In this document: piece by piece, positions 32,983-51,156 of the stretch | Numbering within the stretch: the first letter of the stretch is position 1 | Layout of the letters: every line of letters starts with the position of its first letter | Notes under the pieces: generated by a model | Database searches by the model: none | What the model saw: the letters and a program-made list of their open reading frames with translations, nothing else | Told to the model about the DNA's origin: nothing | Assembly (NCBI GenBank): GCA_902779575.1 | Contig: CACZBW010000001.1 | Span: forward strand, 1 to 64,000 | DNA from: an uncultured Lachnospiraceae bacterium | GTDB taxonomy: Bacteria; Bacillota; Clostridia; Lachnospirales; Lachnospiraceae | Direction: 5' to 3' | Length of the DNA: 64,000 bases | Position numbers and translations under genes: made by a program

Positions 32983-33098
32983 GGGTTTGGAGATCCTCCT
33001 TTCCTGCTGCAGATTTTAATTAAGAAATCCACCGGCACTTGCTTCTCTTTGCTTCCGGAATATGATTTGTTCTTTTTCCGTACTTTTTCGTTATTTCT

Positions 33099-33136
33099 AC
33101 TATAACTCTGTTTTACAATTGTGTCAAATGTAAAAC
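33099..33136 (-). promoter_or_regulatory. yesL promoter with an overlapping inverted repeat
   Basis: On the minus strand TTGACA (33122-33127), 17-base spacer, TATAGT (33099-33104). The inverted repeat GTTTTACA-N11-TGTAAAAC (33110-33117 and 33129-33136) covers the -35 box, a good position for repressor binding. Confidence 0.75.
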
Positions 33137-33140
33137 CTAA

Positions 33141-33182
33141 GACGGATTTCTATATTGACAAATCCGTCAGAAGTGCTATATT
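33141..33182 (+). promoter_or_regulatory. permease-operon promoter with an overlapping inverted repeat
   Basis: Plus-strand TTGACA (33155-33160), 16-base spacer, TATATT (33177-33182). A perfect inverted repeat GACGGATTT-N10-AAATCCGTC (33141-33168) overlaps the -35 box. More TGTAAC/GTTACA-like half-sites follow between 33183 and 33278. Confidence 0.75.
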
Positions 33183-33302
33183 TGTAAACAGAAAATGTAA
33201 CAAAACGGACATTTTCCATCTGTAATCTGACGAAAAAGAAAGGAGGCTGAACAGTTAGTCAGTTTACAAAAAGTTACACATTTGCAAAAGGAGGAAAGAG
33301 GA

Positions 33303-48756: not shown

Positions 48757-49467
48757 ATGGCACAATGGTTCAAGAAGATCTGTGATGCCTTCTACAATGC
48801 ATGGGTTCCTGAAAAGAGGTACCTCGCATATCTGAGCGGTCTGCGTATGACCCTCCGGATTGCCCTGTTCGCGGTAATGATCGGTATCGCGATCGGAATC
48901 GTCCTGGCAGTAATCAAGGTGTCGGCAAAACACTCCAAAAGCAAAGTTCTGAAAGCCCTTGCGGTTTTCGCGAATCTCTATACGACAGTGATCCGGGGCA
49001 CGCCCATGATCGTTCAGATTATGATCATCTATAATCTGATTTTCACTTCGCCCAATTCCAACCCGGTTGTCATCGGCGCCGTCTGCTGCGGCATCAATTC
49101 CGGCGCTTATGTGGCGGAGATTATCCGTGCCGGCATCGAGTCGATTCCCGTGGGACAGATGGAAGCGGGCCGTTCTCTGGGTCTGTCTTATTCCATGACC
49201 ATGAGGACCATCATCCTGCCGCAGGCGGTAAAGAATATTCTTCCCGCCCTTGGAAATGAGTTTATTTCCCTGGTGAAAGAGACTTCCGTTATCTCCGTCA
49301 TCGCCGTCAATGACCTGATGAAGATGGCAGGTTATGTCGGATCCAGAACCTGGGACGTCATACCGCCCTATGTGATCGCCGCGGCGATCTATCTGCTCAT
49401 GACTCTGGCCCTGACCAGGCTGATGGGCGCGTTTGAGAGGAGGATGGCTAAGAGTGATCGTCACTAA
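48757..49467 (+). CDS. polar amino-acid ABC permease
   Basis: 236-residue HisM/GlnP-type permease with about five helices and the EAA-like loop [19 protein letters not shown] near residue 145. The start has AGGAGAG 9 bases upstream, right after the terminator T-run. It overlaps the ATPase gene. Confidence 0.92.
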
Positions 49468-50176
49468 GGATTTGAAAAAACACTTTGCGGGTCATGAGGT
49501 TCTGCGCGGGATCAGCCAGCATATCGTCAAAGGGGAAAAGGTTGTCATCATAGGACCTTCGGGTTCCGGCAAATCAACATTTCTCCGCTGCCTGAACCTG
49601 CTTGAGGAGCCTACGGGCGGCGAGATCATATTTGAAGGGAAAACTATTACGGACCCGAAGGTAAACATCGACCAGATCCGCCAGAAGATGGGAATGGTAT
49701 TCCAGCAGTTTAATCTGTTTCCGATGAAGACCGTCCGGCAGAATATAACGCTGGCTCCGGTCCTGCTGAAGAAGATGAGTCAGGAACAGGCGGACGCGCG
49801 CGCGGAAGAACTGCTGAAAAGGATCGGCCTTCCGGATAAGGCTGACAGTTACCCGGGCATGCTGTCCGGCGGGCAGCAGCAGCGAATCGCCATCGCGAGA
49901 GCGCTGGCCATGAATCCGGACGTGATGCTCTTTGATGAGCCGACCTCGGCGCTCGACCCCGAGATGGTCGGAGAAGTTCTTGCGATCATGAAAGAGCTTG
50001 CCCAGGAGGGCATGACCATGGTCGTCGTCACGCATGAGATGGGATTTGCCCGGGAAGTGGGATCCAGGGTTCTCTTTATCGATGAGGGAATCGTAGCGGA
50101 GGAAAATACGCCCTACGAATTTTTCAACAGCCCGCAGAATCCGCGGCTGCAGGATTTTCTGTCGAAGGTTCTTTAA
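49454..50176 (+). CDS. polar amino-acid ABC ATPase (GlnQ/HisP type)
   Basis: 240-residue ATPase of the PAAT importer. Walker [11 protein letters not shown]-loop VFQQFNLFP, signature LSGGQQQR, Walker [15 protein letters not shown] and the H-loop THEMGF are all present. The GTG start overlaps the permease by 14 bases and has AGGAGG 10 bases upstream. Confidence 0.93.
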
Positions 50177-50253
50177 GATCAGACGGAGATTGCGGCGCCA
50201 AAGTATGGTATGCAATAATCGTATAAACAATTTCTTATAAATCGGGGATGGAC

Positions 50254-50322
50254 AAACTCCTTTCAAGATGTTACAATTTTATTAACTCAGGATAATAAAA
50301 TGTAATATTTTGAAAGGAGTTT
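50254..50322 (+). promoter_or_regulatory. about 30-bp hairpin sequestering the ribosome site of the transglutaminase gene
   Basis: AAACTCCTTTCAA pairs with TTGAAAGGAGTTT, and TTACAATTTTATTA with TAATAAAATGTAA (one bulged A). The four bases between (GATG with TATT) can also pair with two G-U. The loop is ACTCAGGA. The SD GAAAGGAG is wholly inside the 3' arm, and a T-run leads directly into the ATG at 50326. It could act as a translational switch or a terminator-like attenuator. A weak possible promoter (TATAAA, 50236-50241) would start the mRNA just before it. Confidence 0.8.
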
Positions 50323-50325
50323 TTT

Positions 50326-51156
50326 ATGACTCGTTCGTTTCGAAATTATCTGATCGTCGGTTTTTCTTTATTGATCGGCTGCTCTTTTGCAGGATCCGGG
50401 ATGACGGCGCTCCATGCGCAGCCGGCATCTTCCGCACAGGAGATTTCATTGGAGGATGAAGATGACAACGGGTATTCGTCCTCAACGGCGGAGACAGAGA
50501 GATCCTCTTCCGAAGCAGGGGCAAAAGGGCTGTCCTCCTCTGAGGCAGCGGCGTCTTCACAGGGGACGAATGCGCTTGTTTCGGATCCTGCTTCGCACAG
50601 GAGCGGCATGGTCTATACCGGGAATAAAAACATCGACTACCTGGCGGAAGTCATGGTCCAGGCTGCCGGCGTGAAAGAGAATATGGATGACGACACGAAG
50701 GTGAAGCTCATCTATCATTACATTACCGTGAATTTCCATCATATTCATTCCGGCGAACCCTTTAAAATCTACTATGATCTGGACGCGCTGAAGAAGGAGA
50801 TCAAAAGTTTCCGGGCTCAGACAGCAAAGAGGGCGAACGCCGGTGAGATCAGCTATACGGACAAATATTCCGGAATGCTGAAATATATGCTGAAAAGGGG
50901 CGGAGAGTGCAACGCGCAGGCCGGCGTATTCGCTGTGCTGCTGAACCATGTGGGCGTCGAGTGCGGCGTCTGCCACGGACGTTACCTGAACCGGAACGGC
51001 ACGGCGCCGAATCATTACTGGAACTACGCTGTAGTTGACGGCAGAACCTACTACTATGATGTGGACGTGGAGCTCCAGAACTACGGAAAAGGCCAGGGAG
51101 ATTACTACTGGTATAAGAAGACGCGTGCCGAGGCGGAAGAGACGCACGCTTTTTAA
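50326..51156 (+). CDS. transglutaminase-like putative lipoprotein
   Basis: 276-residue exported protein. A probable lipobox LLIGC (Cys19) gives membrane attachment by a lipid, followed by a Ser/Glu-rich linker (about 38-95). The transglutaminase/cysteine protease-like core has Cys195 (GGECNAQAG), His230 (NHYWNY) and Asp245 (YYYDVDVE) in the order of the catalytic triad. Such surface proteins are often peptidases or involved in cell-wall or protein cross-linking; the substrate is unknown. Its ribosome site lies in the long hairpin just upstream, so strong post-transcriptional control is likely. Confidence 0.8.
   Translation: MTRSFRNYLIVGFSLLIGCSFAGSGMTALHAQPASSAQEISLEDEDDNGYSSSTAETERSSSEAGAKGLSSSEAAASSQGTNALVSDPASHRSGMVYTGNKNIDYLAEVMVQAAGVKENMDDDTKVKLIYHYITVNFHHIHSGEPFKIYYDLDALKKEIKSFRAQTAKRANAGEISYTDKYSGMLKYMLKRGGECNAQAGVFAVLLNHVGVECGVCHGRYLNRNGTAPNHYWNYAVVDGRTYYYDVDVELQNYGKGQGDYYWYKKTRAEAEETHAF

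Follow-up and report, generated by a model that had tools for sequence, protein, structure and literature searches.

A gene for a transglutaminase-core protein in the 64,000-nt stretch of Lachnospiraceae DNA analyzed here (the window) has its ribosome binding site buried in a long hairpin directly before the start codon, which raises the question of how the gene is translated and what the hairpin does. An earlier note on this DNA had described a roughly 30-bp hairpin in which an anti-Shine-Dalgarno (anti-SD) sequence pairs with the SD and which leads through six T residues to the ATG, and folding bore out all of these points. Positions 50253 to 50323 folded into one helix of 30 pairs (50254 to 50322; −32.5 kcal/mol) with two G-U pairs (50267/50309 and 50270/50306) and a single bulged base, A50276. 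All of its parts are given here on the + strand. The upstream arm (50254 to 50284) contains the anti-SD, CTCCTTTC (50257 to 50264), and is followed by an apical loop of 8 nt (50285 to 50292) and by the downstream arm (50293 to 50322; seen both in a listing of inverted repeats and in the fold), which places the SD, GAAAGGAG (50312 to 50319), opposite the anti-SD and wholly inside the hairpin. The six-T run (50320 to 50325), whose first three residues are paired in the full hairpin, directly precedes the ATG at 50326.

Ten inverted repeats with arms of at least 18 nt lying no more than 100 nt apart were listed for the window, and the arms of the hairpin (26 nt, 88%) were the longest of them. Positions 50248 to 50340 folded at −34.7 kcal/mol, compared with −12.6 ± 2.5 kcal/mol for 200 shuffles (z, −8.9), none of which was as good. 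Of 2062 sampled segments of 93 nt (step, 31), 100 had a GC content below 40%, and the hairpin ranked first among these in stability; at least 25 G+C-richer 93-nt segments had a lower energy than the hairpin segment. The possibility of a mobile or dispersed hairpin was rejected, as it occurs once in its own genome (E, 0.001; a minus-strand match was its own palindrome), and the leader had no match in phages, plasmids, or viral contigs (the last searched by exact pattern).

The DNA for the 5′ strand of the helix contains a promoter-like sequence for the transglutaminase gene, which stands at the same place in G001, the one other species of the genus that has both gene and leader. Scanning of 50150 to 50450 at a threshold of 9 yielded a sole promoter-like site, of σ70 type (TGGACA-17-TACAAT with TG; 10 of 12 matches), but chance expectation from shuffles is 0.9 sites per region, so the scan alone is weak proof. 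Using a hand-made matrix, we found that the site ranked 13th among 127900 scored positions of the window and that no other + strand position from 50100 to 50326 scored as high. Its −35 hexamer, TGGACA (50249 to 50254), is imperfect in both species, reading TAGACA in G001; its extended −10, TG-T-TACAAT, occupies 50269 to 50277 (hexamer, 50272 to 50277). The stretch of the upstream arm with the anti-SD serves as the spacer. Placed by rule 7 nt after the −10, transcription would start at 50284, immediately before the loop, and RNA starting there would begin past the upstream arm and thus be made without the SD-hiding strand. The earlier note had pictured a switch within one transcript, perhaps worked by a helper such as an RNA-binding protein, a small RNA, or temperature, and had named a start inside the hairpin as evidence against it. 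The predicted start lies just there, which argues against a one-transcript switch but gives the hairpin another sense: since the best promoter of the region sits in the upstream arm, the choice would be which promoter made the RNA, and no helper is required.

Folding of the two predicted RNAs supported this distinction. In RNA from 50180, which carries both arms, opening of the SD cost ~17 to 20 kcal/mol, and hiding of the SD in such RNA is well supported by this modeled cost. In RNA from 50284, in which the helix cannot form, the cost was ~4 to 9 kcal/mol, varying with the 3′ end; a pairing of the SD with ACUC just past the AUG remains there (opening cost, ~7 kcal/mol) and is possible in G001 too, so the silencing would be a difference of degree.

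The setting of the hairpin offers a source for the longer RNA. Upstream on the same strand lie three genes of an ABC transporter, encoding its solute-binding protein, permease, and ATPase (Pfam SBP_bac_3, BPD_transp_1, and ABC_tran), the last of which, at 49433 to 50176, is a possible origin of read-through. A terminator scan of 50150 to 50450 returned zero sites, although its limits (loop of 3 to 8 nt, at most 20 pairs counted) are ill-suited to this hairpin; with the co-directional upstream genes, this result makes read-through RNA possible. Downstream, the open reading frame (ORF) of 276 aa at 50326 to 51156 scored 26.6 bits against the Pfam model of the transglutaminase core (PF01841; cut-off, 23). 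The description “surface transglutaminase” is thus carried by Pfam as far as the domain goes, while its surface or secreted part rests on an N-terminal hydrophobic stretch that, like a Ser-rich linker, was seen by eye.

A partial copy (50188 to 50233, + strand) of a dispersed intergenic repeat separates the ABC gene from the promoter and is absent here in G001. The repeat, ~45 to 60 bp with a core near AAAATYGTATAAACAATT, occurs at 11 places in its own genome (G000) at an E value of <0.02, the window copy included; copies are found in the window and in contigs C1, C3, C4, C10, C15, and C29. One of them (L005) has, by eye, an 11-bp inverted repeat at its two ends, CGCCTGAAGTC/GACTTCAGGCG, and what stands in the window resembles only the left half of L005. 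The repeat is REP- or MITE-like.

What is computed here is the hairpin, the promoter-like sequence, the conservation of the stem in two species, and the difference in energy. As the most probable explanation of these results, and one we hold with reasonable though not high confidence, we propose that the hairpin silences read-through RNA and that the inner, σA-type promoter yields the translatable RNA. RNA arriving from the ABC transporter genes would carry both arms and form the 30-pair helix, to which ribosomes would not bind; part of it may also end at the T-run. RNA from the gene's own promoter, inside the upstream arm, would start at the loop, lack that arm, and have a usable SD. If only this RNA is translated, expression of the transglutaminase would follow its own promoter only. 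In view of the genes concerned, a fitting purpose would be that secreted, wall-active enzymes are not made whenever a neighbor is transcribed.

Comparison with G001 suggests that the arms are maintained as arms. The transglutaminase proteins of the two species are 88% identical; of the 831 coding positions, 141 differ, as do 38 of the 103 fourfold sites. None of the 60 aligned stem positions was substituted, and one T of 61 was deleted in G001, leaving a run of five T residues. The loop, on the other hand, differed at four of eight positions; that all four substitutions within the hairpin should fall in the loop has a chance of ~8e-5, and this confinement indicates that the arms are kept as such. 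For the 42 stem positions outside the promoter hexamers, TG, SD, and start, the chance of no substitution was ~4e-9 if the fourfold rate is applied and 4e-4 if the overall coding rate is used, rough figures that assume independent sites and an equal intergenic rate and that count the deleted T as one of the 42. All 14 spacer positions from 50255 to 50268 were kept in G001, and these are hardly needed by a promoter alone. The earlier note had proposed aligning the leaders of orthologues for paired changes: the stem proved identical in G001, and since no pair varies between the two species, there is no compensatory change and no covariation signal. In G001, the stop codon of the upstream gene lies 13 nt before the arm.

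Among the matches and homologues examined beyond this pair, the same hairpin was not found. A protein search of 19 genomes of the genus gave four with the transglutaminase protein at an E value of 1e-10, the source genome included. When 61 genomes were searched with the leader, 37 had matches at an E value of 0.1, the only long match (100 nt, 90%) being that in G001; in 397 genomes of the family, 17 had matches at an E value of 0.001, and in the 16 besides the source genome these were no longer than 49 nt. Five leader matches besides G001 were examined, two of them (L066 and L067) from the 397-genome search. Three (L022, L023, and L066) had no such leader by eye, and a fourth, L030, is the NlpC/P60 leader described below. 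The fifth, L067 (1480 to 1550, minus strand, in G421), precedes a gene for a CAP-domain secreted protein and has a TGTAACA/TGTTACA palindrome that ends at the SD. A contig search gave 15 homologue loci, one of which (L050) is apparently the G001 contig, and stretches of six others were examined. By eye, the hairpin was absent at the starts of L051, L052, L053, L060, L009 (G005), and L008 (G017); the stretches from L056 and L061 consisted of coding sequence only. Conservation of the pairing in relatives, which the earlier note had made a touchstone, thus holds in one close relative and fails in the distant homologues with a visible start.

An independent pair of leaders shows the same arrangement before a different gene. 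L030 belongs to G043, from another family of the order (leader-search match of 60 nt, 74%; E, 0.016), and the gene behind it encodes NlpC/P60 and SH3 domains. Its promoter matches TTGACA-17-TATAAT at 12 of 12 positions, with ACTCCTT in the spacer; its hairpin (−28.7 kcal/mol; z, −6.7) buries the SD and is followed by a T-run, and RNA from position 1518 folded no better than shuffles (z, 0.28). In G461 (L163), a second species of the genus of G043, an NlpC/P60 gene likewise has a 12/12 promoter with ACTCCTT in the spacer and a hairpin (z, −6.4) that buries the SD in folded read-through RNA; the short RNA there is partly structured (−11.7 kcal/mol; z, −1.75). The upstream genes are co-directional and unrelated, encoding a sulfatase in G043 and a serine dehydratase in G461, which indicates that the leader belongs to the NlpC/P60 gene and not to the neighborhood. 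The outer stems of the two species share their 5′ strand and differ at one base of the 3′ strand, so that a T-T mismatch in G043 is a T-A pair in G461; the inner stem differs more. Both leaders have T-runs, and by eye their TTACA-type boxes precede the −35 and are separate from the hairpin.

The T-runs bear on another explanation, in which the chief role of the element, which also contains the promoter of the next gene, is to terminate the ABC transporter operon, and the hiding of the SD is a by-product. The G+C-richer base of the stem adjoins the T-run, no other terminator was found between the genes, the hairpin of G001 stands 13 nt past a stop codon, and the NlpC/P60 leaders end in T-runs as well. 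However, the terminator scan gave no site, poorly suited as its limits are to such hairpins, and the stem is A+T-rich, with three unpaired T residues beyond the full stem in the window and, one T having been lost, two in G001. We therefore consider this explanation unlikely as the main function. Termination of some read-through RNA at the T-run may nonetheless take place, so that of the two routes in the original suggestion of an on/off device acting by translation or termination, the hiding of the SD is supported and termination is possible, with zero scanned terminators.

A main transcript that starts upstream, carries the whole hairpin, and is opened by a protein, a small RNA, or temperature would fit a hairpin that is real and conserved and that lies behind genes on the same strand. 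Against it stand the good promoter within the upstream arm and the helix itself, which at −32.5 kcal/mol is probably too stable to melt at growth temperature. Moreover, no Rfam family reached its gathering score in the 64-kb window, and the nine weak Rfam matches in 50160 to 50400 were all to microRNA precursor families and far below the cut-offs. We regard such a transcript as quite unlikely.

Finally, it is very unlikely that the inverted repeat is a DNA operator at which a regulator binding both arms controls the promoter, with the RNA hairpin incidental: the arms around the promoter are indeed conserved, and a WalR-like motif (consensus, which we take to be TGTWAH-N5-TGTWAH) lies at 50269 to 50285 with one mismatch, but the 30-nt arms extend through the SD to the T-run, both departures from symmetry other than the bulge are G-U pairs in + strand RNA, the genome has no other copy of an arm, unlike what a regulon would show, the WalR-like fit is weak because the motif matches nine places in the window, and the TTACA-type boxes of the NlpC/P60 leaders stand clear of the hairpin. 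A like palindrome that favors the operator is that of a Fur-family gene with a divergent neighbor in G160 (L136, 1209 to 1290; G160:C7), where TTGACA-17-TATAAT has an anti-SD in its spacer and a long palindrome over its −10; an operator is at least as likely there, and that palindrome could be an autoregulatory one. The nine WalR-like places in the window, each with one mismatch allowed, compare with 2.0 expected in shuffles. Separately, between divergent genes at 33082 to 33190 of the window, an inverted repeat (33125 to 33149/33160 to 33184) overlaps a strong + strand promoter-like site (−10 at 33177) and adjoins a − strand one (33104). These two sites rank second and fourth in the window scan, and the first two ORFs on the + side are ABC permease-like by eye.

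Leaders of like design were also seen elsewhere; the cases that follow were chosen for striking hairpins and not at random. An N-acetylmuramoyl-l-alanine amidase gene directly behind dapF has an outer stem of 17 pairs (z, −8.9). A LytTR response regulator gene that follows an NAD(P)-binding oxidoreductase has a hairpin with a z of −5.2, and a lipoprotein-like gene downstream of dapB has one with a z of −4.9. In G561, where pdxS (SOR_SNZ) follows an aminotransferase, the z was −4.3 and no −35 passed the scan; G538 has the like leader. In G529, a lipoprotein-like gene that follows a transporter-like ORF has a hairpin with a z of −5.3 and TATACT, with the like leader in G508. Like leaders precede a gene that starts like an EF-G/Tet(M)-type GTPase (by eye) and a phage tail-like gene. 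The upstream ORF was co-directional wherever examined, except for the divergent neighbor of the Fur-family gene, and the −35 boxes were poor by eye in several of these cases. IS200-type transposase leaders were found as well, eight identical in G168 and two near-identical in G145, with one gene of each examined. The G168 leaders (L123; G168:C1:145799 and seven other places) have TATAAT inside an SD-hiding hairpin and also an inner hairpin, and related ones occur in G145 and G174. Another apparent leader family has three members, long SD-hiding hairpins that resemble one another in sequence (ACTCCTTTTT[A/G]G.AAGAA...) and stand before ATG, at G706:C91:134895, G684:C126:92, and G684:C129:60215, with paired differences by eye.

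Pattern counts across genomes gave a mixed picture. In the 21 genomes searched with it, the pattern CTCCTTTN{20,50}AAAGGAGN{3,10}ATG had 21 matches versus 1 for its reversed control, which we did not take as evidence because the control ignores gene-start context and the matches include two divergent pairs (G037:C32 and G044:C81). In 200 genomes, CTCCTTN{3,13}TATAATN{15,45}AAGGAG had 62 matches in 46 genomes (reversed control, 14), and a permuted CTTCTC control had 28 in 25 genomes (its own reversed control, 31); single controls ranging from 14 to 31 mean that the background varies twofold. With duplicates removed, the counts were 52 versus 27 for the permuted control, from which one match (G077) had been dropped as containing the true motif. 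An outer stem of at least 8 was present in 13/52 versus 1/27 (Fisher P = 0.027), or in 10/49 versus 1/27 (P = 0.085) without three IS200 leaders. When no SD was required, TTGACAN{0,9}CTCCTTN{2,11}TATAAT was not enriched, with 38 matches in 33 of 329 genomes versus 40 in 38 of 329 for the permuted form (reversed control, 5; reversed control of the permuted TTCCTC form, 17). In 368 genomes of the order, ACTCCTTTN{15,45}AAAGGAGTN{0,14}ATG had 64 matches in 46 genomes versus 19 for a reversed control that ignores gene-start context, several places being divergent pairs or near-identical relatives; TATAAT was seen by eye in 9 of the 64, and the matches examined besides L030 were L163, L164, L165, L171, and L172. 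A family-wide rule of anti-SDs in promoter spacers was given up in light of the 38 versus 40 matches and the mixed statistics, which point to individual cases, partly mobile elements. We can suggest only tentatively, leaning slightly against it, that chromosomal genes of Lachnospiraceae and of other families of the order have repeatedly evolved leaders whose promoter spacer is the anti-SD, as a translational insulator in place of a terminator; the genes so equipped would include those for cell wall enzymes (transglutaminase, amidase, and NlpC/P60).

Strong terminators are often missing between neighboring genes in bacteria, and read-through RNA is commonly taken as expressed. A promoter inside an SD-hiding hairpin would separate “transcribed” from “expressed,” and RNA coverage would then overstate expression. 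SD-hiding riboswitches and RNA thermometers resemble the transglutaminase leader in that the SD pairs with an upstream anti-SD; in those systems, however, the hairpin is part of the regulated transcript, whereas the transcript predicted here is made without the anti-SD. Mobile elements offer another likeness, in the transposase leaders of the IS200/IS605 type, beside which the fold-back of IS10 may be set. In the IS200-like genes of G168 and G145, TATAAT lies within a hairpin that hides the SD, as does the −10 of the transglutaminase leader. In Salmonella IS200, one stem-loop is reported to end impinging transcripts and a second to hide the ribosome binding site (PMC3196728). Mobile elements of the IS200/IS605 type need protection wherever they land, but no transposase is evident by eye in the ORF list beside the transglutaminase gene; identity with an IS200/IS605 leader was rejected, as the only Pfam domain of the gene is Transglut_core.

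The closest counterpart is in phage T4 and its relatives. The leaders of T4 gene e, soc, I-TevI, and segB and of Aeh1 mobE are reported to hold the ribosome binding site in a stable helix on RNA from an upstream promoter, and a promoter in the DNA of the 5′ strand gives RNA that lacks this strand and is translated (PMC2988022, PMC3014915). For gene e and I-TevI, long early RNAs hide the site and late promoters give open RNA (PMC2988022, PMC3014915), and synthesis of T4 lysozyme is reported to be 100-fold lower from the long RNA (PMC3014915). The earlier note knew of no described element like this one. That stands for this type of gene, before which we found none in open-licence literature, but not for the mechanism, which is described for T4 (PMC2988022, PMC3014915). 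Our search of open-licence literature found the T4 and IS cases and no promoter-in-hairpin leader before a chromosomal cell wall gene. The logic of a promoter within the hairpin is the same in T4 and here, where it is predicted from sequence and folding. In T4, however, the promoter inside the hairpin is a middle or late one of the phage and the device times infection, whereas here the promoter is of the host σA type and serves a chromosomal gene; unlike the T4 leaders, moreover, this one is a near-perfect palindrome of 30 pairs. We rate the transglutaminase leader as the same working as the T4 device in a different carrier, a host chromosomal gene. It would extend a trick of phages and transposons to the genes of their hosts and would give builders of constructs a simple element with which to insulate genes.
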